Assembly (NCBI RefSeq): GCF_031598375.1
Contig: NZ_CP123872.1
Location: 1,178,001 to 1,242,000, forward strand
Direction: 5' to 3'
DNA from: Temperatibacter marinus
GTDB lineage: Bacteria > Pseudomonadota > Alphaproteobacteria > Sphingomonadales > Kordiimonadaceae
DNA length: 64,000 nt
Part shown: in pieces, positions 831 through 59,567 of the stretch
How the letters are laid out: every line of letters starts with the position of its first letter
How positions within the stretch are numbered: position 1 is the stretch's first letter
The notes under the pieces: model-generated
What the model saw: the letters and a program-made list of their open reading frames with translations, nothing else
Told to the model about the DNA's origin: nothing
The model's database searches: none
Position numbers and translations under genes: made by a program

Positions 831-1094
831 ATGGCAAATACACCACAAGCTAAAAAGCGTGTTCGTCGCAATGAGCGTCGTGCAGAAATCAACAAAGCCC
901 GCGTAAGCCGTATGCGTACATTCATTCGTAAGGTTGAAGAAGCAATCGAAGGCGGCGACAAAGCAGTTGCAGCGGATGCTCTTAAAGCAGCACAGCCAGA
1001 AATCATGCGCGGTGCAACCAAAGGCGTTCTTCACAAGAAAACAGCGTCACGCAAAGTGTCTCGCTTGTCTGCTCGTGTGAAGGCAATGGCATAA
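831..1094 (+). CDS. rpsT: 30S ribosomal protein S20
   Basis: The 87-residue Lys/Arg-rich protein begins [17 protein letters not shown] and ends with the conserved [19 protein letters not shown] tail, the standard length and pattern for S20. It binds the 5' and 3' minor domains of 16S rRNA in 30S assembly. The gene stands alone: a 295-base spacer precedes it and its own terminator follows. An rpsT gene just upstream of dnaA is common in alphaproteobacteria. The short open frame in the upstream spacer (605-829) has no recognisable protein character and I read that spacer as leader and promoter. Confidence 0.98.
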
Positions 1095-1117
1095 GCCTCT
1101 CAGTTTTTCTAAGACTG

Positions 1118-1461
1118 ATTCGCTTAATTGCGACATATAATTTCAAAAAGCTGTACAGATTCTGTGCAGCTTTTTTTTATTCTTGGTCTGGAATGCGAAC
1201 AAAGAAAGTACAGGAGAGGGACGGTAAAAGTCGTCTACACTATATCTTGTGTCTGGAAATCTGATGCATACTAGGAGGGCAAAAAAATGGACAAAATTGA
1301 CTCTTTTTATTGTCCCCGCTGCTGAGCAGGTGTAGTTTTGAGTCTCGCACTTCAAGGCATTGTTTGAGGGTGATTGTTACAACTTTCGTAACATCAATTG
1401 AAAACAGGCAATCGAATCTCGTGGACTGGCTTTTTATGGTCACCACCCACGCTTTCGAGTC
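1118..1461. promoter_or_regulatory. GANTC (CcrM-type) site cluster upstream of dnaA
   Basis: The 600-base rpsT-dnaA spacer has no convincing gene. It contains six GANTC sites, at 1118, 1158, 1299, 1340, 1414 and 1457, four of them within 163 bases. GANTC is the site methylated by CcrM in many alphaproteobacteria, where hemimethylation after fork passage times transcription of dnaA and other cell-cycle genes. No clear run of DnaA boxes (TTATNCACA) is visible, so I do not call this oriC. Regulation by CcrM here is inferred; the CcrM gene is not in the window. Confidence 0.5.
1148..1178 (+). terminator. Terminator after rpsT
   Basis: An 11-bp stem, AAGCTGTACAG against CTGTGCAGCTT with one G-U pair and a 3-nt loop, is followed by eight T. 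It sits about 55 bases beyond the rpsT stop. Confidence 0.85.
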
Positions 1462-1697
1462 ACATATTTCGATATTTTTATTTAAATTATCGGTCAGTGT
1501 AATGCCAAAGCTGTAGAAAACGCAGTTGAAAGATAGGCCTCTTATATTCATTGTTGGTTCATGGATAAGGGTGGAGATAGTTTGACACTGTGAAGAGACA
1601 GTCTTTTGATTTGAAGCGATGTCTGGGATTGTGCGCGGGGTTGATACCAGATGGCAGAGTGTAAAGTACTGTATGTAGTTGTGAGCTGGAAAACTTA

Positions 1698-3146
1698 ATG
1701 AATAACGAGAGGGAAAAAGTGGGAATGTCATTATCAGCAGGGAATGCACAACAGACTTCATCTCAAGATTTGAGTGGTAAAGACCAAGAAGTCCATATGG
1801 CTATTTGGGGGTCTGTGTGTGATAAATTCTGTCGAGAATTTGGCCAAAACGCTTATGATACATGGGTTTCTCATTTGATCTTTTCCTCATTCGAAGGGGG
1901 CGTTGTTTCTCTTGCAGCGCCGACCCGCTTTGTGCGCGATTATATTCAGTCTCATTATGCCACACGGTTGAATGATTTTTTTAAAGCTGACCTTGTCGGT
2001 ATGCATGAGCTCGTCATTCGCTTAGATTCCAGTTTACAAAGCAAGCATCGTGAAGAGCAGGCAGAAAGTAAAGCGGACGCTCAGTCAGGTGATTCTGCTG
2101 TTGTGACGTCTGCAAACTTTGAAGGGTCTGCGCTGGATCAACGGTATACTTTTGATAGCTTTGTAGTCGGAAAGTCTAATGAACTTGCTTATGCGGCCGC
2201 AAAGAGAATTGCCGAAAGTGATGAAATCGCCTTTAACCCTCTCTTCATTCATGGAGGGGTGGGTCTTGGTAAAACACATTTAATGCATGCGATTGCTCAC
2301 GAGATAAGACGGAAGGCGCCACAAAAGAAGGTCGTATATGTGTCGGCTGAAAAATTTATGCTGGAATTCATCGCTGCCCTTCGTTTTAAAGATACCCACG
2401 CATTCAAGCAGAAATTTAGAAATGTTGATATTCTGATGGTTGATGATGTGCAGTTCATTGCGAACAAGGACAGCACCCAAGAAGAATTCTTTCATACCTT
2501 CAACGCATTGGTGGATAATCGGTGTCAGTTGATTATTACAGCAGATCGTTCGCCTACAGAATTAGAGGGCATTGAAGAGCGTATTGTCTCTCGTCTTGGG
2601 TGGGGTCTTGTAGCAGACATCCATCCCACAGATTACGAATTGAGACTGGGTATCTTACAGTCCAAGGCAGAAGCGAATGATAAAGTGATTGTGCCTCAAG
2701 ATGTGTTGGAATTTTTAGCCAAGAGGATTACCTCTAATGTGCGCCACTTAGAGGGTGCTCTGACGCGGGTCATGGCTTTTGCTGAGCTTGTTGGTCGTCC
2801 AATTACAATGGAAATGACACGGAATGTGCTTCAGGATCTCATACGTGCAAATGACCGTAAAGTAACGATTGATGAAATCCAGCGTACTGTAGCGGATTAT
2901 TTCTCTATTCGATTGTCAGAGCTTTTATCTGATCGACGTGCTCGGAATATTGCACGGCCTCGTCAATTTGCTATGTATCTTTGTAAGCAATTGACTAATA
3001 GAAGCTTACCTGAAATTGGCCGTAAGTTCGGCGGTCGTGATCATACCACTGTCATGCACGCCGTGAGAAAAGTTGAAGAATTGAAAGAGCAAGATAGCCA
3101 GATCGAAGATGATATAGGGCGCTTGATGCGTCAGCTTGAAGGCTAG
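1698..3146 (+). CDS. dnaA: Chromosomal replication initiator protein DnaA
   Basis: This is a full-length 482-residue DnaA. Domain I starts around residue 30. The AAA+ domain has Walker A GGVGLGKTH near 185-193 and Walker B ILMVDDVQF near 250. Domain IV carries the DnaA signature GGRDHTTVMHAV used to read DnaA boxes. It binds ATP and unwinds oriC to start replication. ATG at 1698 is the longest start, but ATG at 1725 sits behind a better purine-rich site (gagaggg), so the protein may be 9 residues shorter. It heads the dnaA-dnaN-recF-gyrB cluster but is parted from dnaN by about 1 kb. Confidence 0.98.
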   Translation: MNNEREKVGMSLSAGNAQQTSSQDLSGKDQEVHMAIWGSVCDKFCREFGQNAYDTWVSHLIFSSFEGGVVSLAAPTRFVRDYIQSHYATRLNDFFKADLVGMHELVIRLDSSLQSKHREEQAESKADAQSGDSAVVTSANFEGSALDQRYTFDSFVVGKSNELAYAAAKRIAESDEIAFNPLFIHGGVGLGKTHLMHAIAHEIRRKAPQKKVVYVSAEKFMLEFIAALRFKDTHAFKQKFRNVDILMVDDVQFIANKDSTQEEFFHTFNALVDNRCQLIITADRSPTELEGIEERIVSRLGWGLVADIHPTDYELRLGILQSKAEANDKVIVPQDVLEFLAKRITSNVRHLEGALTRVMAFAELVGRPITMEMTRNVLQDLIRANDRKVTIDEIQRTVADYFSIRLSELLSDRRARNIARPRQFAMYLCKQLTNRSLPEIGRKFGGRDHTTVMHAVRKVEELKEQDSQIEDDIGRLMRQLEG

Positions 3147-49301: not shown

Positions 49302-49748
49302 TTAATGTGATTTTTGTAAAGGCTGATGGATGTGGAGCCCCGGAGGGGCGGAACAGCTATCAGCCGGTAAAATCGTCTTTGGTGCTGGTGGGCGATAGCC
49401 CAAACTGCTATGTGGCCTGACAGTGTTGTAATGCTGTCGCCACTGTTCAATGATAATCTTTGCTTCTTTTAATCCATAGAATATTTCTCCGTCCAATAGC
49501 TCATCTCTCAACTTCCCATTAAAGCTTTCATTGTAGCCATTTTCCCAAGGCGACCCTGGATCGATGTAAAGCGTTTTAACCCCAATTTGTTTCAGCCAAT
49601 CCTTGATCCGTGGCCTGCGCCACTGTGTTGACCGCACCTGACCAATGGCCTTGCAAGCCCGACGCTGTGACACGTCAAGCTTGCGGACAATATGATCAAC
49701 AAAAGTTCTACGACGAGAAGGCTCTACCAGTTTCCCTTGGCGGCCTCT
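49302..49748 (-). pseudogene. IS3-family orfB transposase, internally deleted
   Basis: The frame joins the N-terminal orfB segment ([20 protein letters not shown]) directly to the C-terminal catalytic segment ([20 protein letters not shown], then [20 protein letters not shown] and [17 protein letters not shown]). The DDE domain's two Asp-bearing stretches are missing, while the final Glu (NESF) remains. Roughly 150-200 residues are lost, so the enzyme is dead. Normally expressed by frameshift from orfA. Confidence 0.85.
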
Positions 49749-50064: not shown

Positions 50065-52227
50065 TCATAACTTAGATATCCTGGTTTCAATTTGCCTTTG
50101 ATACACTGTATCACCACGCTCAGCAGCGAAAGAGCGGGCGAGCTGCAAGAGTACCGGATCAAAGCGATGGCGCCGCAGTGCTGCTTTGACACCACGATAT
50201 GCCTTATCAGGTTGACCCATACTGTTCAACGCTACCAAATAAACATATACATATCGTGCATTATTTCTATCCGCTTTTGTAGCCCTTTCAAGCTGTATAA
50301 GAGCCTGAGCCCTATCCCCTGAACGAATTAACGCAAGACCATATGAATGCAATATTGCCCCATCAACATTCTTTACAGTTGAAGCTTTGGCAAGCATGCC
50401 TACTGCTTCATTTTCACGACCCGTTTGCCTAAGAAGTTCTGCAAGATTGACCAAAGCAGGCGCAAAAGACGGATCCTGCTTTAAGCTTTGGCGGTATTGA
50501 CGCTCAGCCTCATCCATGTCACCGCGACGAACAGCATGTTGAGACAAATTCATACGCCCTTCACCGCGCCAACTACTTATCCGATCAGCCTGTAATAGCT
50601 CTGTAAACGCAGCTTTCGTCAAATCAGCGCTAGGGACTGAAAGCAAAGTGCGTGCTGCTTCCACACGAACAGCCTTAAATTCATCATCAAGCAGCGGACT
50701 GATAAGGGTATGCTGATTTTCTGGTGGCAACACTGCTAACGCGCGTATAGCGCCGATACGTAACAGTGCAGAAGGGTCATTCAGCTTGCCTATTGCAAGA
50801 TTAATCAAATTCCTATCCGCAACGCGGGGGATCAGGCTTAGTGCCGTTGCGCGTGTAATAGCCGCAATGTTGTCGTCATTTATTAATGTGTGCAACTGAC
50901 GGCGGGCAGAAGGATTACCGCGCCGGGCTTTATGAACTGTCACCGCATTCTTATTGCGATGCTTGCTACCTGGAAACCAGTGATTTAATTGCTTTGCAGC
51001 CCAGCTATTGGATTGATCTGTATGGCATGTTGTGCAGGCATTGGGGCTTCCTGTTTGGATACTGATATCAGGCCTTGGAATTTTAAAGCTGTGATCACGG
51101 CGCGGGTCAACCACCATGAAACTACGTTCTGGCATGTGACAGTTCACACACATGGCGCCTTTTGTGTTTGTTTTATGCTTGTGATGTTTAGGTGTATCAA
51201 ACACAGGGGCGCTATGGCACTGGGTACACACTCCGTTCCCTTCTGCCTTTAATTTCAGGCTATGACTGTCATGGCAGTCAAAGCAGCTAACGCCTTTTTG
51301 ATACATCTTGCTTTGTAGAAAGGATCCCCAGACATAGACTTCTTCCTTAATCTGACCATCCGCAAAATACAAAGGATCATCCAATAGTGTAGGTGAAAAC
51401 TGATCCATAAATTTTTTAGAAGGGTCAATACCGTCCCTTAAAGGCGATCGCAGACTATGGCATGCGCTACATACTTCCATTTCAGGACGGCGGCGCTGCC
51501 CCTTACCAGACCAAGTGGCTGTATGCGCTCCTTCTTTCAAAGTAAACCCACCCATGTCATTTAGATAAGACATCAGGTCGTCTTTCCAGCCTGGTGGGTT
51601 TTTACCCATTGTGTTTTGCGCACTAGCATGCGCTGAAGCGTCCACATGACAAGAAGAACAGGATATATTCACCTTTGAAAAACTGGTCTTAAAGACATCC
51701 CGTTTTTCATTATAGTTACGTTTAAGCCCAGTTGAATGACAATCAGCGCACATACCGTTCCAATTCTGCAAGGGTTGTTGCCAATGCAAACGATCACCAG
51801 CGGGCAAATATTCATCAGGATATATATGGAACCAGCGCTGACCACCTTTTGATTCGTCACGGCTATCCCACGCAAAGGGCAATACCTGATATTTACCCTT
51901 ATCTGTTTTTACCAGATATTGCTGTAAGGGCGTCACGCCAAATGTATAGGAAATAGAATAGGTAACGGCCTTACCATCCTTATCCTTAATAGCAACCTGA
52001 AAGCCATCCTCTGTTTTTAAAAAGATGGCTGTTTGACTATGATGATCAATGGTAACGCCGGAAAAATCACCAAGAACGCTTTCCTCAGTTGCGGTCGCCA
52101 TCGCCTGCGCGTGATGGGAAATCTGCCAGCCCCCATATTGATCGATGTGGCAGGTACGGCAGGTGTCATCCGCCAATAAAGGTAAGGAAAACAACCCAAT
52201 AATTATTGCTATCAATATTCTATGCAT
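50065..52227 (-). CDS. Octaheme c-type cytochrome with HEAT and TPR repeats
   Basis: From ATG 52227 the signal peptide is MHRILIAIIIGLFSLPLLA. Eight CxxCH heme sites follow in the first 400 residues: CRTCH, CADCH, CSSCH, CSACH, CFDCH, CTQCH, CVNCH and CTTCH. The next part has HEAT-like helices (LLRIGAIRALAVLP, AVRVEAARTLLSVP) and TPR-like helices (AERQYRQSLKQDPSFAPALV; ALIQLERATKADRNNARYVY). Such cytochromes act in periplasmic electron transfer, some with oxidoreductase activity. The TGA stop is formed by the inverted-repeat end of the IS, so the native 3' end has been replaced. Function is unassigned. Confidence 0.85.
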   Translation of the reverse strand: MHRILIAIIIGLFSLPLLADDTCRTCHIDQYGGWQISHHAQAMATATEESVLGDFSGVTIDHHSQTAIFLKTEDGFQVAIKDKDGKAVTYSISYTFGVTPLQQYLVKTDKGKYQVLPFAWDSRDESKGGQRWFHIYPDEYLPAGDRLHWQQPLQNWNGMCADCHSTGLKRNYNEKRDVFKTSFSKVNISCSSCHVDASAHASAQNTMGKNPPGWKDDLMSYLNDMGGFTLKEGAHTATWSGKGQRRRPEMEVCSACHSLRSPLRDGIDPSKKFMDQFSPTLLDDPLYFADGQIKEEVYVWGSFLQSKMYQKGVSCFDCHDSHSLKLKAEGNGVCTQCHSAPVFDTPKHHKHKTNTKGAMCVNCHMPERSFMVVDPRRDHSFKIPRPDISIQTGSPNACTTCHTDQSNSWAAKQLNHWFPGSKHRNKNAVTVHKARRGNPSARRQLHTLINDDNIAAITRATALSLIPRVADRNLINLAIGKLNDPSALLRIGAIRALAVLPPENQHTLISPLLDDEFKAVRVEAARTLLSVPSADLTKAAFTELLQADRISSWRGEGRMNLSQHAVRRGDMDEAERQYRQSLKQDPSFAPALVNLAELLRQTGRENEAVGMLAKASTVKNVDGAILHSYGLALIRSGDRAQALIQLERATKADRNNARYVYVYLVALNSMGQPDKAYRGVKAALRRHRFDPVLLQLARSFAAERGDTVYQRQIETRISKL

Positions 52228-52359
52228 GCTCACCTTCAACCCAACTGGGGTCAACAAACATGAGAAACCCAGTTTTAAAACTCATATCTTGCGACATATA
52301 GAGCAGTATTCACCTTTAGTTGCAACTATCTTTGCTTTCAAAGAAAGTGATAGGTTTAA

Positions 52360-52831: not shown

Positions 52832-55117
52832 TTAATTTGACTGTGCCGTATCGCTTAAAGTATTTACAACCTTCTCTCGCAATTCATTCACACTCTTCTC
52901 GTGCTTCTGCAATAATGCTTTGAACTCAACGTCTTCCTGAAGAGGCTGTAAAAGGTGGTTGTTCTGCAGTGTCCACCATTCCTTATCGTAATAGGGTAGC
53001 CAGCCCATGTTTAAGGCGTTTTCTAGGTGTTGTATTGCTTTTTCTTTGTTATTTAACTGGGCATTAATTTCAGACAGAGTGAATTCAGCTTGAATTTTAT
53101 CGAACACCTTACCCAGCTTTAGAAATGCTTGTATGCTATCAAGCAACAGGTTCGCGCTCTCAGTCTCCCCTAACTTGGATAAAGTAGCTGCGTATAATAC
53201 GAAGGTTAAATAGTTGTCTGCTGTGATGGCATGTCGTGTTCGAGATGTATCGTGATGCCCTGTAGGGACCATTTGCAATATAGTCTCCTTGGCCTGTTTA
53301 AATTTTTCCGCACGAAATTGCGCAGTGGCTAGATTGAATAAAGCTCTCTGGTTATTCGGTCGATGTACGGCGATACGCTCTATAAGTGGCAGCAAATTTT
53401 GATCCTCGCCTTTTAGCCCCAAATTGATCAAATCCAAAGAATGTAAAAAGTGACCATGTTTTGCTTTCATTTTAGCAAGAATGCTTTCGGCAATGCTATT
53501 TGCGCCAATGCTGAGATAGGCCAAAACAACCTGTTCACAATATTCATCGCTAGAACAGTTTGTGAAAAGCTCTGCATTTGCTGCCTGCCATTCAACTATG
53601 GTGATAATTGACTTTTTATCATGCCTGAAAACATGCGTTGATTCAATTGCATGTGAGATGTGATCTGGTTCAAGAATGTAAGCGCGTTGATACATTCGTT
53701 GGGCTGCATCTTGTTGACCAATTGACTGAAGATATTTGCTGTACGACCGTTTAAGAGAGGCGGATAACGGGTTAAGCGCAATGGCCTGGCTCATGTGTTT
53801 GACGACTTGCGCCTGTTTGCCCATCAGCTTTAATAATGTGCTATACCAATTGTGGGTGGTGGCATTATCCTCAAGGGCAAGGGACTGTATAAATGCTTGT
53901 TCTGCTTGCTGTACCACTGTTGAATCCGCAGCAGTAAAGTGTCTTTCATAACTTGCCCTAAGGGTGAGAACCATTCCCTTTGCAGCCAGCGCCGCTGGAG
54001 CGTTGGGTTTTAATTCTAATGCTTTTTCTATGTGTGGCAGGGCATAGCTTACGGCTTTTTCCTCGCTCCAGTTGGAAAACCGATGCAAAGTAGCATAGGT
54101 AATGCCCAGACCAAGATGCGCTTCAGCATATTCCGGTTCTAACTCTAGCGATTGTTTGAAATATTTCACAGCCTTATTCAGTGATTTTGGATTTCTCTGC
54201 CGCCAGTGATATTGCCCCATCAAATACCATTCGTAAGCTTGTGCATTAACGGGCTTAGCATGCTGTCTTTTCTGATCTGAACCGGGTTGGATTATGTCTT
54301 GTACAGTGGCACTGATAGTGTCTTGAAGTTTAAAATAGTTGTCGGTTTCACCGTCAAAAATTCTTGACCAAAGTTGTTGACCGTCTTTTGTGCTGACTAT
54401 TCTGACATTTATTCGAACCTGTTTCCCCATGGTTTGCACACTGCCATCCAGTAGAGTGTCAACCTGTAAGGCTTTACCAATATCTATTGCATTATATTTG
54501 CCGCGGTACGTAAAGGAAGAATACCTAGAGATCACTTTTAAGTGATTATTTTGCGACAGTTGATTGATAATAGCATCAGATAATCCATCGGTAAAATGCA
54601 GATTGTCTTGCGCTGAACTATGGTTCTTAAAGGGCAATACAGCGATGGAATGAATAGGTAGAGTTTCTGTGGCCGTTCCGTCATCAAAGTTAATAAAATA
54701 GACAGCCAGCGACGCTACTAGCACCAATAAGGATATGACGCTTATAGAGATACGAGAGAATTTTCTTGTTTTACTGCTAACCTGGGCTGAGGGTGCTACC
54801 GTTTTAACATCGGCTATTAAACTATACCCAACACCTGGTAGGGTTTTGATGAATGTTGGACTGCGTGCATTATCGCCCAAGGCTTTTCTGATTTTATTGA
54901 TCGTGACAGACAATATGTCCTCAGCAACTAAGCTTCCTTTCCAGACATGGTCAAATATCTGGGCTTTCGTGACATTTTTTCCCGCATGCTGCATTAAAAA
55001 CAGAAGCACTTGCATGCTTTTATTATCAAGAGAGCGTTTGTCGTCTTTATTGTTTAGGCTATTCGTCCTCGGACAAATTATCCATGACCCTAATTGGTAT
55101 TGTTGGTTTTGTTTCAA
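52832..55117 (-). CDS. CadC-like transmembrane regulator with TolB-like and TPR domains
   Basis: The 761-residue protein starts with an OmpR/PhoB-type winged helix (about 1-105: LDNKSMQVLLFLMQHAGKNV, QIFDHVWKGSLVAEDILSVT, LPGVGYSLIADV), then a membrane segment (ISISVISLLVLVASLAVYFI), then a periplasmic part. Its first section is TolB/adenylate-cyclase-like (IHSIAVLPFKNHSSAQDN, FTDGLSDAIINQLSQ, LLDGSVQTMGKQVRINVRIV). The rest is several TPRs (for example AVKYFKQSLELEPEYAEAHL). This is the architecture of CadC/ToxR-type one-component sensors. It is divergent from the serine hydrolase gene, its likely target. Confidence 0.88.
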   Translation of the reverse strand: MKQNQQYQLGSWIICPRTNSLNNKDDKRSLDNKSMQVLLFLMQHAGKNVTKAQIFDHVWKGSLVAEDILSVTINKIRKALGDNARSPTFIKTLPGVGYSLIADVKTVAPSAQVSSKTRKFSRISISVISLLVLVASLAVYFINFDDGTATETLPIHSIAVLPFKNHSSAQDNLHFTDGLSDAIINQLSQNNHLKVISRYSSFTYRGKYNAIDIGKALQVDTLLDGSVQTMGKQVRINVRIVSTKDGQQLWSRIFDGETDNYFKLQDTISATVQDIIQPGSDQKRQHAKPVNAQAYEWYLMGQYHWRQRNPKSLNKAVKYFKQSLELEPEYAEAHLGLGITYATLHRFSNWSEEKAVSYALPHIEKALELKPNAPAALAAKGMVLTLRASYERHFTAADSTVVQQAEQAFIQSLALEDNATTHNWYSTLLKLMGKQAQVVKHMSQAIALNPLSASLKRSYSKYLQSIGQQDAAQRMYQRAYILEPDHISHAIESTHVFRHDKKSIITIVEWQAANAELFTNCSSDEYCEQVVLAYLSIGANSIAESILAKMKAKHGHFLHSLDLINLGLKGEDQNLLPLIERIAVHRPNNQRALFNLATAQFRAEKFKQAKETILQMVPTGHHDTSRTRHAITADNYLTFVLYAATLSKLGETESANLLLDSIQAFLKLGKVFDKIQAEFTLSEINAQLNNKEKAIQHLENALNMGWLPYYDKEWWTLQNNHLLQPLQEDVEFKALLQKHEKSVNELREKVVNTLSDTAQSN

Positions 55118-55240
55118 GACGCACCCAAATGTAAAAATACAAGCTTATGAATAGTAATCGATTGTAGCTTGATGTACCAGAAACCTGATGATGTCAAAAC
55201 ATCTATGACTGGTAAACCTTAGTTTTCGCAGATGAAAACT

Positions 55241-55270
55241 GACATTTAAGAACATTTAAGAACATTTAAG
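55241..55270. repeat. Three head-to-tail decamers (ACATTTAAG)
   Basis: GACATTTAAG, AACATTTAAG and AACATTTAAG follow each other with an exact 10-base period, one helical turn. They lie 124 bases before the regulator start and about 204 before the hydrolase start. Winged-helix OmpR-type domains typically bind direct repeats of about 10-11 bases, so this is the best operator candidate for the CadC-like protein. The rest of the 55118-55473 spacer holds the longer repeats and no gene. Confidence 0.55.
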
Positions 55271-55404
55271 TTGTTTCGAAAGGGCTGGCTTGTAGGTTTC
55301 CCGCAACCGTTACCACGGCTGGTGTGTAAGACTGCAAAGGACTAAGAATACAGAGGACTAAGTGACGTTGCTTTGTCCCTTTCATATACGCTTTGCTTGC
55401 AAAT

Positions 55405-55458
55405 CAGCCAAATTTAATAAAGCAGCCAAGTTTAATAGAGCCGCTACGTTTAATAAAA
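55405..55458 (+). repeat. Three imperfect 17-18-bp tandem repeats before the serine hydrolase
   Basis: Around 55405-55458 the unit (C)AGCCAAATTTAATAAAG / CAGCCAAGTTTAATAGAG / CCGCTACGTTTAATAAAAT recurs three times. The frame running through it is open (giving P-x-L-I-K-like triplets) and could be read as an N-terminal extension from 55393, but the good start is at ATG 55474. I take it as leader DNA. Confidence 0.5.
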
Positions 55459-55473
55459 TCGATAGGGAATAAA

Positions 55474-56658
55474 ATGATCTTTAATACGCTATTTAAAAGT
55501 ATGTTTGCCGTTACATTATTAATGAATATTAATGCAGTCGCCATCGGGGATGACGGCCAAGCACACGAAGCCACCGCCGCAGATGCAAAAGTCCCATTCT
55601 GGGAACTTCCCCTTTTAGATAAAGCTTTCATTAATTCTGCGCCTAATGACAGAAAAGATGGTCTGCTTGTCGGTGAATTAGGTGTAGATGGTGGCAATAA
55701 AGATATGATTGTTAAGCTTGCGCAGGAGATGGCTGACAACAAGCACGGAGATTATGACAGTCTGCTTATCGCATATAAGGGCAAGTTTTTGTTCGAATCC
55801 TATTACAAGCGTGGCCGCATCAATCTGCCACACTTTCTCGCTTCTGGGACCAAAGGAAATACAGCCTTAGTCGTTGGCCGTGCTATTGAATTAGGGTATT
55901 TGACCCTAGACGACTTACACAAGCCTTTGGTTAGCTTTTTTAAAGGACTTGATGCTACAAAATTTGTGAAGGGTGTTGAAAAGATCACTCTTCATCAAGC
56001 AATGACAATGCGCTCGGGACTACGTTTCACTGATGAAGTGATGGAAAAATTTCGAACAAACAGTGATCAGTATAAAGGCTTAGCGCAGCTTCAGGCTTTT
56101 TTCGAACTCAGCGCCCCTGTTACGTCTGAAACGCAGGTCTACAACTACCGCGGCTATGATCCAATTATGGTCATGCATGTTTTAAATGCGGTGGTGCCAG
56201 GATCTGCCGAAGATTTTATCAAGACTGAGTTTTTCGGTAAATTGGGCATTTCTAATTACAGCTGGCGTACGGATGCGGCCGGGCAGCCATTAGGCGAGAC
56301 AGGATTAAACATTATGTCTCGTGATTTGCTCAAACTGGGTGCATTGGTTATGAATGAAGGCCGCTTGAACGGTGAGCAATTCCTTCCAGCCGATTATTTG
56401 GCGAAAGCCACAAGTGCAATTACGCGGGTCACCGAAGACTGGCAACCTAAATCCTTCTTCTATGGATATCTATGGTATCAAACTAATTTGATTGTTGGCG
56501 ATAAAAGCTATGATGCTAAAGTCTCTTGGGGGGGTGGAGGTAATCGAATAATTACCATAGCTGCCCTGGACTTGGTCGTTGTGATCACTGGTCATGACAT
56601 GAAAGATACTATCATGACACAAGTCTCCAATACCATCTTGCCCGCCTTTATTAGATAG
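55474..56658 (+). CDS. Exported serine hydrolase of the beta-lactamase family
   Basis: ATG 55474 follows GATAGGGA and encodes a signal peptide (about 1-24). The 394-residue protein has a class C/AmpH-like fold: SxxK in ASGTKGNT (Ser 124, Lys 127), MRSGLRFTDEVM, a Tyr-Asn pattern in VYNYRGYDP and, in place of KTG, SWGGGGNRI near the C-terminus. Such proteins hydrolyse esters, beta-lactams or peptidoglycan-type D-amino acid amides; which one is not evident. It is the probable target of the divergent CadC-like regulator. Confidence 0.85.
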   Translation: MIFNTLFKSMFAVTLLMNINAVAIGDDGQAHEATAADAKVPFWELPLLDKAFINSAPNDRKDGLLVGELGVDGGNKDMIVKLAQEMADNKHGDYDSLLIAYKGKFLFESYYKRGRINLPHFLASGTKGNTALVVGRAIELGYLTLDDLHKPLVSFFKGLDATKFVKGVEKITLHQAMTMRSGLRFTDEVMEKFRTNSDQYKGLAQLQAFFELSAPVTSETQVYNYRGYDPIMVMHVLNAVVPGSAEDFIKTEFFGKLGISNYSWRTDAAGQPLGETGLNIMSRDLLKLGALVMNEGRLNGEQFLPADYLAKATSAITRVTEDWQPKSFFYGYLWYQTNLIVGDKSYDAKVSWGGGGNRIITIAALDLVVVITGHDMKDTIMTQVSNTILPAFIR

Positions 56659-56800: not shown

Positions 56801-57643
56801 CTATAAGGAGCGATATACAGCAGGTGTAAAGCCAGTGATTTTTTTAAATTGAATGGACATATGGCTTTGCTGAGCAAAACCTGCAGCATAGCTAATATCT
56901 GATAAAGACCTTTCACTCTGCAAGAGGCTTTTAACTTTTTGAACACGCAGAGCAGTTATATAGCGTGAAGGGGTCATGCCAAAACTGAGCTTAAACATGC
57001 GTGCAAAATGAAAAGGACTAAGTCCTATTAGCGCAGCCAGCCATTCAATGGTAATTTTATGGTCCAATTGATCTTTTATCGCCGAATTCACCCTACGCAT
57101 ATGATAAAGAGATAATCCCCCCTTTACCTGTTTCAAAGACAAATCTTTGCTCGTGTAGTGCTGTAGTAAATGTACAATTATATTGTTTACAATCTCTTCA
57201 CTCTCAACCGGATCAGTCCTTGTCGAGCGCACATATTTTTGGACCCAAGCCAATAAAATCGGATCTTCTTGATAAACCACGTCAAGCAGCTCAATAAAAC
57301 GCACATCTTTTGAGAAAGTCATAGACGCCGCAGTTTTAAGTTGTTCGTCTGGGATGTATAAGTGCAGAAAATCAATCTCACTGTTAATGGCCCATTTGCT
57401 TTCAGACTGTTCTGGCATCAAACAAATTTTACCGGGGCCTCCGTAAAGCCCCTGTTTATCCTTGCGAAAACTAGTGGTGCCCCCTGAAAGATAAAGACTA
57501 AGGGTGTGATCTGACTGGCGACAATAGGTCACATCCGATTGATTGACATGCCACTGCACCATTTCAACGCCCTTTAAAAAAGGGTCTCTTTTAGAGGATT
57601 GTTCATGTGCAATTTTTGCAAAATGATTGAGGTGATCTGTCAT
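56801..57643 (-). CDS. AraC family transcriptional regulator
   Basis: The 280-residue protein has a C-terminal AraC/XylS double helix-turn-helix (about 180-280): KITIEWLAALIGLSPFHFAR, MFKLSFGMTPSRYITALRV, LSDISYAAGFAQQSHMSIQF, ending in KKITGFTPAVYR. The N-terminal 170 residues resemble a cupin-type sensing domain (GGPGKICLMPEQSESKW). It is divergent from the first of two CPBP protease genes across 140 bases, so those may be regulated by it. Inducer unknown. Confidence 0.9.
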   Translation of the reverse strand: MTDHLNHFAKIAHEQSSKRDPFLKGVEMVQWHVNQSDVTYCRQSDHTLSLYLSGGTTSFRKDKQGLYGGPGKICLMPEQSESKWAINSEIDFLHLYIPDEQLKTAASMTFSKDVRFIELLDVVYQEDPILLAWVQKYVRSTRTDPVESEEIVNNIIVHLLQHYTSKDLSLKQVKGGLSLYHMRRVNSAIKDQLDHKITIEWLAALIGLSPFHFARMFKLSFGMTPSRYITALRVQKVKSLLQSERSLSDISYAAGFAQQSHMSIQFKKITGFTPAVYRSL

Positions 57644-57783
57644 GGCATTATAATCTTTTTTTTGTTTAAGCCCTGTCGTGGCTCATCATACCGTATACCG
57701 CAAGATTTTGATATATTTTTGTCGGCTCCAGGGTTTGAATAAAGCGCTTTTAATGAAAAAAAATAAGAAGGAAACTAAAAGTC

Positions 57784-58710
57784 ATGACAGTTTTATCTCA
57801 AACACCTACTGTATTATTTGAAGGCTTCCCGCCGGCAAAGCGCCATAATAATCCATGGATTATGCTTTTATTGTTATTTGCTTTTTTCATTTTGGCGCAG
57901 ATTATTACTATTGTCCCTTTGATTGAATCCGGCCTGATCGACGAGGATCACATCGAAGTACTGGAACAATATCCCAACATTCTCTATATGCTTTTTGCTA
58001 CTTTTTTAACGACCTTTGTTCTCCTATGGCTGTGGGTCAGGTTTTATGAAGGCACAACATTAAAAAGTGTTGGGCTCACTTTGTCTGGGGACTCTTCTTA
58101 TAAATACGGACGTGGCCTCCTCTATGGCCTGGGCATGTCCGGCACTGTTGTTCTATTAATTTATTTAACAGGGGGATTTGTCGTTGAGAAAATACCAACA
58201 TTTACATCCGGCAATCTCATTGCCGTTCTTATTCTCCTCACAGCCTTTGCCGTTCAGTCTGGTGTAGAAGAAATAGTTTTCAGAGGCTGGATGCTCGGAA
58301 AAATAAGTGCGAAAAGGGGTATCGTCGCTGGCATAGCTTTTAATACACTTGGCTTCTTACTCTTGCACCTTTTGTCCTACGATTTTGCTAATAATTCCAT
58401 ATGGATGGCTATAGGCTTTTCCCTGATGTTGATATTGTTTTCAGTCTTTACGAGCCTCATCACCATAAGAGATAGATCTGTATGGGGTGCCTGTGCTTGG
58501 CACGCTGCTTGGAACTGGTTCTTCATTAATGGCTTTGGCGTTGCTACAACGGGAATTGATTTGGACACGCCCCCCCTCTTTGTGGACTTCGCCATCAATC
58601 CAAGTGCGCCACAATGGATTTCAGGGGGCCTGTCTGGGCCAGAAGGCAGTATCATGGCGCTGATCGTATTGTCACTGGCTTGTGTCGTCGCCCTCAGAAA
58701 AAAATCATAG
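57784..58710 (+). CDS. CPBP family intramembrane glutamic protease (1)
   Basis: The 308-residue protein has about eight membrane helices. The CPBP (Abi/CAAX) motif appears as QSGVEEIVFRGWMLGKIS (EExxxR) followed by FNTLGFLLLHLLSYD, and a third motif near the end as WGACAWHAAWNWFF. These enzymes cleave prenylated or membrane-bound peptides in eukaryotes, and in bacteria act in bacteriocin self-immunity or membrane-protein processing. AAGGAAA precedes ATG 57784. It is followed after 14 bases by a second CPBP gene. Confidence 0.88.
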   Translation: MTVLSQTPTVLFEGFPPAKRHNNPWIMLLLLFAFFILAQIITIVPLIESGLIDEDHIEVLEQYPNILYMLFATFLTTFVLLWLWVRFYEGTTLKSVGLTLSGDSSYKYGRGLLYGLGMSGTVVLLIYLTGGFVVEKIPTFTSGNLIAVLILLTAFAVQSGVEEIVFRGWMLGKISAKRGIVAGIAFNTLGFLLLHLLSYDFANNSIWMAIGFSLMLILFSVFTSLITIRDRSVWGACAWHAAWNWFFINGFGVATTGIDLDTPPLFVDFAINPSAPQWISGGLSGPEGSIMALIVLSLACVVALRKKS

Positions 58711-58724
58711 TATAAGATGAAAAA

Positions 58725-59567
58725 ATGACGCAAAAGCAAGATACAATAATCACAGTAAGCTTATTCATAGCTTTAACTGCTCTTTTTCATCTTATTGGCT
58801 TTTGGCTTATTTTCAGACTGGGCAAAGCAACTCCTTTAATGCTCTCGGTAGGTGTCGCGGCAATTGTCACAAGCCTACTAAGAAAACAATCTTTGAATAC
58901 CTGGGGCTGGAGCTGGGGAAAATGGAAATATCAGTGGACGAGCTACCTTTTGCCATTCTTTATCATTGCAACAGCCTATGCTATCATTTGGATTACAGGT
59001 GTGGGGGGGGGTTATAATGAAACCTATATCGACCATACCCGCGAAGGCTATAATCTTGCAGAATGGAATGATGCGTCAATCATTGCATTCCATTTTCTAA
59101 TAACTGCAACGATCACCTTTCTTTTAGCCCTTCCCTCTGTCCTTGGTGAAGAAATCGCATGGCGGGGCTTTCTAGTTACGGCCTTAATGAAATCGTTTTC
59201 CTTTAAGGCCACATCATTAATCAGCGGCTTTTTATGGTCTGTTTTTCATTGGCCGCTTATGTTCATGGGATTTTACGGCGTCTCTGGGACGCCTCTGCCC
59301 TTTCAAGTGGCCTGTTTTACAGTATATATCATGAGCGCATCTGTCATCATGACTTACTTAAGGGTGAAAACAGATAGCTTATGGACTGGTGTTATTTTTC
59401 ATATGAGCGCAAATGTTTTCTTACAGAAATATTTCTCTACCCTTACACAAAATACTGAAACAACAAAGTGGTATGGAGATGAATTTGGTCTATTACCAGC
59501 GTCGCTCATGCTAATGGTAGCCATCTATTATTGGCTTAAAAGTAACAAAGAATTTAACGCGCACTAA
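58725..59567 (+). CDS. CPBP family intramembrane glutamic protease (2)
   Basis: A 280-residue membrane protein with seven or eight helices and the CPBP motifs VLGEEIAWRGFLVTALM, then FLWSVFHWPLMFMG and a final SLWTGVIFHMSANVF. It is only distantly similar to the preceding gene, so the pair is not a recent duplication. The ribosome site is weak. Both genes probably form one operon under control of the divergent AraC protein. Substrates unknown. Confidence 0.88.
   Translation: MTQKQDTIITVSLFIALTALFHLIGFWLIFRLGKATPLMLSVGVAAIVTSLLRKQSLNTWGWSWGKWKYQWTSYLLPFFIIATAYAIIWITGVGGGYNETYIDHTREGYNLAEWNDASIIAFHFLITATITFLLALPSVLGEEIAWRGFLVTALMKSFSFKATSLISGFLWSVFHWPLMFMGFYGVSGTPLPFQVACFTVYIMSASVIMTYLRVKTDSLWTGVIFHMSANVFLQKYFSTLTQNTETTKWYGDEFGLLPASLMLMVAIYYWLKSNKEFNAH

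Follow-up and report, generated by a model that had tools for sequence, protein, structure and literature searches.

The 64-kb window of DNA analysed here, taken from the 3.18-Mb, single-contig genome of Temperatibacter marinus, contains two divergent genes at the positions given in the initial annotation: a predicted membrane-bound regulator on the reverse strand and a predicted exported serine hydrolase on the forward strand (Table 1). The 356-bp spacer between them holds a triplicate repeat with a period of 10 bp and two further tandem arrays, and these three are the top-scoring tandem arrays of the whole window (Tandem Repeats Finder (TRF) scores 58, 51 and 72). The triplicate is considered here as the candidate operator that would tie the hydrolase to the regulator. 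ToxR/CadC-like regulators such as this one are numerous, and to our knowledge the targets and binding sites of most of them are not known.

Table 1. Positions of the features discussed, in window coordinates or as loci of the comparative survey
Feature	Position or locus	Strand	Basis
ToxR/CadC-like regulator (most likely assignment), 761 aa, TTG start	52832..55117	-	Pfam, model, full-length orthologs in 20 other loci
Winged-helix DNA-binding domain, aa 3-107	54797..55111	-	Pfam Trans_reg_C and structural alignment
Predicted operator, three head-to-tail ACATTTAAG units, 10-bp period	55242..55270	+	kept in all 21 regulator loci
-35-like TTGTTT, abuts third repeat	55271..55276	+	TTG invariant in 21/21 sites
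-10-like TAGGTT, 16 bp after -35 (16-17 bp in orthologs)	55293..55298	+	position conserved; putative -10 role
16-bp tandem array, hydrolase leader	55327..55362	+	TRF
18-bp tandem array, hydrolase leader	55401..55457	+	TRF
Predicted exported serine hydrolase, 394 aa, beta-lactamase (NylB/class C-like) fold	55474..56658	+	PF00144, model
Putative catalytic S-x-x-K, S124 and K127	55843..55854	+	invariant in 36 aligned homologs
wHTH-PD40 divergent spacers	L080, L084-L091, L100, L107, L127, L137, L140, L152		

A conserved element in the spacers of regulator orthologs

The triplicate is exact, with ACATTTAAG standing at 55242, 55252 and 55262, and the reverse strand of the whole repeat reads TTAAA-N5-TTAAA-N5-TTAAA. 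When up to two mismatches are allowed, TTTAAG-N4-TTTAAG-N4-TTTAAG occurs once in the genome, and that match is the exact one. Spacers beside orthologs of the regulator at 20 further loci contain the same element: all 21 sites have three T/C-TTAAG-type units at 10-bp steps (11 bp once), then always TTG, and 16-17 bp past the TTGnnn hexamer TAnnTT or a close variant of it. Most positions of TTTAAG-TTG carry about 2 bits of information each, those of the promoter spacer mostly well below 1 bit, and the phase of the repeats as well as TTTAAGTTG in the third copy are nearly invariant. Scored with a leave-one-out matrix, the 21 sites reach 23-69, and no score above 7.1 occurs in the 73 hydrolase loci (1.09 Mb) that lack the regulator. 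The site at the regulator has the top score in every locus except L192, where a second site is higher. In a scan of 44 whole genomes, a pattern derived from these same 21 sites was found in 17 of the 21 genomes with the regulator and in none of the 23 without it, and the reversed control pattern had no match across the 44 genomes.

The element is oriented toward the hydrolase side in every locus and is kept in L182-L184, where the facing gene encodes an esterase or a PD40 protein. Four extra sites lie before three further hydrolase copies and one WD40 gene. Two of them, in L201 and L212, are on another contig, about 107 bp before a hydrolase ATG and with no regulator found adjoining; L192 carries the others, before a second hydrolase copy and before the WD40 gene. 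Since these unlinked copies mark targets in trans and the element survives exchange of the facing gene, there is strong computational support for the triplicate being the operator of the regulator, which it follows from genome to genome. From sequence data alone, the whole orthologous regulator family would thereby gain a prediction of its operator, promoter and regulon that is resolved to single bases and has its controls built in.

Recurrence of the divergent gene pair

GTDB genomes were scanned by pattern for the hydrolase family, of which about 380 relatives were found in this way, and 80 loci resulted. In seven of these, a full-length regulator ortholog (51-65% identity) lies directly upstream on the opposite strand (Colwellia DT_19, Colwellia RSH04, two Pseudoalteromonas, a Kangiellaceae metagenome-assembled genome, Marinicella and Pleionea); a PD40 gene is inserted between the two genes in Colwellia DT_19. 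To remove the bias toward the hydrolase, the regulator alone was searched for in 397 genomes around Pseudoalteromonas and 248 around Pleionea. This search returned one match per positive genome and added 13 loci, in which the gene facing the regulator encodes the hydrolase (10 loci) or else a related exported protein, either a PF00756 esterase (2) or a PD40 protein (1). The survey of gene-pair co-occurrence that the initial annotation had proposed was thus positive from the hydrolase side and from the regulator side. Altogether, the 20 further regulator orthologs all belong to Gammaproteobacteria, with 51-65% identity over the full length, and the divergent pairing with the hydrolase holds in 18 of 21 loci of unrelated marine bacteria that span Kordiimonadales, Colwellia, Kangiellaceae, Marinicella, Pleionea and Pseudoalteromonas. 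The outer neighbours of the pair vary between loci. Distance matrices of regulator and hydrolase correlate with r 0.82, a value reached in 0 of 5000 permutations, and the trees differ in detail. In other genomes PD40 genes are the commonest neighbours of the hydrolase. In L078 a single gene (881-2551, reverse strand) joins a PF00756 esterase to a PD40 propeller, and this fusion links the exchangeable target genes.

No regulator ortholog of comparable strength was found in 99 relatives (best match 34%), none in 385 genomes of the class at E<1e-60 and none in viral contigs, and plasmid matches were distant (26-28%). Because the regulator is missing at comparable strength from the 99 relatives and the 385 class members, Gammaproteobacteria are the probable source of the window copy. 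As pointers to a possible island that carries the cassette, as stated earlier, there are this absence from the relatives and the G+C content of the window, which at 40-44% to the right of about 51 kb is a few per cent below the 45-48% to the left.

The regulator and its known relatives

Sequence and structural model indicate that the regulator is most likely a membrane-integrated one-component regulator of the ToxR/CadC-like type, with an OmpR-type winged helix-turn-helix (wHTH) domain at its N terminus. Pfam assigns residues 29-100 to Trans_reg_C (E 1e-16) and finds tetratricopeptide repeats (TPRs) further on, and there is no Response_reg match that would point to a receiver domain, as expected of this type of regulator, which passes its signal without phosphorylation. 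The predicted order is wHTH (residues 3-107), a transmembrane (TM) helix at about 126-143, a CadC-like periplasmic part at about 153-481 and extra TPRs up to about 760. In the AlphaFold model, a helix at 126-143, of low predicted local distance difference test (pLDDT) score, is followed by an alpha/beta domain and a long TPR array, and a hydrophobic stretch at the TM position is conserved in eight orthologs, all of which suggests a single TM helix between the wHTH and a C-terminal periplasmic sensor. The best structural match of the modelled wHTH is ToxR bound to toxT DNA (8b4d; Z 17.4, root mean square deviation (rmsd) 1.5, 103 residues, 32% identity), the next best the DNA-binding domain of CadC (5ju7; Z 16.4, rmsd 2.2, 105 residues). 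The modelled residues 153-481 match the CadC sensor 3ly8 (Z 15.7, rmsd 4.1, 300 residues) and also 3ly7. Of the architecture assigned initially, the wHTH, the TM helix and the TPRs hold; the part labelled TolB-like gives weak FlgO/CsgG-type matches in Pfam and is better described as CadC-like, in view of the 300 residues aligned with 3ly7/3ly8 and the roughly 280 TPR residues that follow.

In HilA/EilA (PRK12370), too, a wHTH is followed by a middle domain and then by TPRs, and the NCBIfam match extends over residues 155-390 (E 9.9e-27, score 93.5); however, HilA is cytosolic, whereas the window regulator has a predicted TM helix. Identity as HilA/EilA was rejected at 93.5 bits against a curated cut-off of 589, and identity as CadC (PRK10153) at 94.3 bits against 400, with no cadBA among the neighbouring open reading frames (ORFs) scanned. 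CadC of Escherichia coli is alike in having a wHTH, one TM helix and a periplasmic alpha/beta plus TPR domain and in regulating an adjacent unit. It differs in lacking the further TPR residues, in its periplasmic sequence (11-13% identity), in its target, which is the decarboxylase/antiporter cadBA and not an exported hydrolase, and in its binding sites, since two head-to-head TTAxxxxT sites (PMC5430869) contrast with the three head-to-tail 10-bp repeats at the -35 of the window. ToxR of Vibrio cholerae shares direct repeats with a 10-bp period, and TTAAA-N5-TTAAA on the reverse strand of our predicted site fits the tox-box consensus TNAAA-N5-TNAAA (PMC8517210). In contrast to ToxR, the window regulator has a different periplasmic domain, three repeat units instead of two and an apparently small, dedicated regulon. 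A ToxS-like partner gene was not found in the shared neighbourhood of the regulator loci. The pair could serve as a non-pathogen model for membrane-bound winged-helix proteins that read head-to-tail repeats.

The hydrolase

The assignment of the second gene to an exported hydrolase with a beta-lactamase fold is well supported by its match to PF00144 Beta-lactamase (E 2.3e-14, 53.7 bits against a cut-off of 27) and by a signal-like stretch at the N terminus from which export is predicted. As start codon, the ATG at 55474 behind AGGG is preferred over a TTG at 55393. The model (pLDDT 89) is closest to Lsa45 (8dc1; Z 35.1, rmsd 2.5, 312 aligned), followed by NylB (Z 32.9) and PIB-1 (Z 32.5), with AmpC at about 26. 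Sequence and model support an SxxK enzyme of the NylB/esterase/class C group; a classical AmpC beta-lactamase is not favoured because NylB, Lsa45 and PIB-1 fit better. With the NylB-like and family VIII esterases (Lsa45 8dc1, PIB-1 8rlj, EstG and NylB) the hydrolase shares the fold (Z 30-35), the invariant SxxK and a Gly-rich stretch at 353-356, whereas the identities are 15-22% and it belongs to a distinct family. The same genome encodes a second paralog with 48% identity (G000:C1:1317088-1318311; L054, L076), which is without the operator and lies close to an N6/N4 DNA methylase and a YcaO gene.

All parts of the locus are of known kinds, namely ToxR/CadC-like regulators and PF00144 hydrolases. 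In a literature search of partial coverage, no description of a CadC-like/TPR regulator paired with a serine hydrolase or PD40 protein was found.

A model for regulation of the hydrolase

We consider it quite probable that the two genes form a one-component cassette of the ToxR/CadC kind, in which an envelope-sensing regulator activates the exported hydrolase through the triplicate next to the -35. The position of the repeats directly against the -35 and the poor -10, which is usual in activator-dependent promoters, suggest an activator that contacts RNA polymerase. The predicted start of transcription is at about 55305. The regulator would reside in the inner membrane, where its CadC-like alpha/beta domain and long TPR array might sense an envelope or environmental signal, and this signal would change a membrane-bound dimer or oligomer. 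Up to three wHTH domains could then bind head-to-tail to the computationally supported operator, and the bound regulator beside the -35 of a weak promoter would recruit RNA polymerase for transcription of the hydrolase. The hydrolase, as its fold, SxxK motif and signal-like N terminus suggest, would be exported and would, in the periplasm or extracellularly, cleave an ester, an amide or a peptide. Unlinked hydrolase copies in some relatives would be driven by this operator as well, as would genes for a PF00756 esterase, a PD40 protein with a propeller or a WD40 protein, and the regulator may govern a small set of targets, most of them exported and concerned with a single kind of substrate. These predictions could help to find the substrate of the exported hydrolases, a widespread and so far uncharacterised family. 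The sensing and response function proposed initially is thus supported, as the pairing recurs and the repeat is conserved in 21 of 21 loci and before unlinked hydrolase copies. The description of the cassette as self-contained is too strict, given the unlinked targets in some genomes and the exchangeable target gene.

Some observations weigh against activation through the triplicate. The preference for activation over repression comes from the geometry of the site. Moreover, the sites of E. coli CadC are described as head-to-head (PMC5430869), and the binding mode would therefore be ToxR/OmpR-like rather than CadC-like. The model of the regulator is only of moderate quality (pLDDT 72.6, predicted template modelling score 0.58). 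The repeats have diverged in three loci (L186, L187 and L193), and in two loci with the regulator beside an esterase that site is the sole one in the genome. Finally, a consensus promoter scan did not call the weak -10 and returned a single, chance-level site at 55432.

The regulator might also bind the triplicate and repress the hydrolase promoter until a signal releases it. A protein bound to repeats that abut the -35 could indeed block RNA polymerase, and PMC8517210 describes ToxR as able to activate or repress. Still, the repeats lie upstream of the -35/-10 core and not over it, and the -10 appears poor (TAGnTT/TACnTT), so that we regard repression as unlikely. A repeat in a divergent spacer could in principle serve either gene, and the hydrolase would be a mere bystander if the triplicate were the site of another protein or an autoregulatory site of the regulator. 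This is very improbable considering that unlinked copies also precede hydrolase genes with no regulator next to them, that the element faces the hydrolase side at all loci and that none occurs in the regulator-less genomes. The two other tandem arrays in the spacer, which have no counterpart in the other 20 regulator-locus spacers, could indicate that the triplicate is likewise a functionless product of replication slippage. However, the triplicate is conserved at 51-65% regulator identity and the surrounding spacer is not; on these grounds we reject a slippage origin and give it practically no credence. The units of the 18-bp array end in TTTAAT, a variant core of some operators, and are out of the 10-bp phase. 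The spacer gave no Rfam match to an RNA element.

Other regulators beside the hydrolase family

Members of the hydrolase family also lie beside a membrane regulator of the wHTH-PD40 type (16 loci), LytTR response regulators (29 loci) and histidine kinases (25 loci), the latter two in L121, L095 and other Flavobacteriia. In three relatives (L063, L066 and L078) a BlaR1-type M56/TonB_C protein stands beside the hydrolase family or its PD40 partner, and next to the BlaR1-like protein L063 and L078 have a partner gene of BlaI size (123 aa). The divergent spacers of the wHTH-PD40 regulators contain TCA[GT]-type units at 11-bp steps in 14 of 14 cases, with four copies in 13 of them and three in one. 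A period of 11 stands out in these spacers (17.8 versus 12.9 shuffled) and a period of 10 in those of the window type (19.5 versus 13.1 shuffled). The distinct periods per regulator type argue that the operator follows the type of regulator. Marine bacteria may have in common a mobile set of exported hydrolases and propellers in which exchangeable membrane regulators each bring their own head-to-tail operator with its own period, a proposal that we regard as evenly balanced between right and wrong. If it is true, one could read from the repeat unit and its period, as from a code, under which sensor a given hydrolase stands.

Further genes around the pair

Directly left of the regulator, at 50065-52257 of the window, lies a gene for a multihaem cytochrome c with HEAT and TPR repeats. 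Further left of the cassette, a C-terminal fragment of an IS3-type transposase (rve_3) is located at 49302-49673; with the shift in G+C at about 51 kb, it may mark an island edge. The hydrolase is followed, at 56801-59567, by genes for an AraC-type regulator and a pair of adjacent CPBP-like membrane proteins, and CPBP proteins (Rce1-like) are also found close to the hydrolase cluster in L069-L071.

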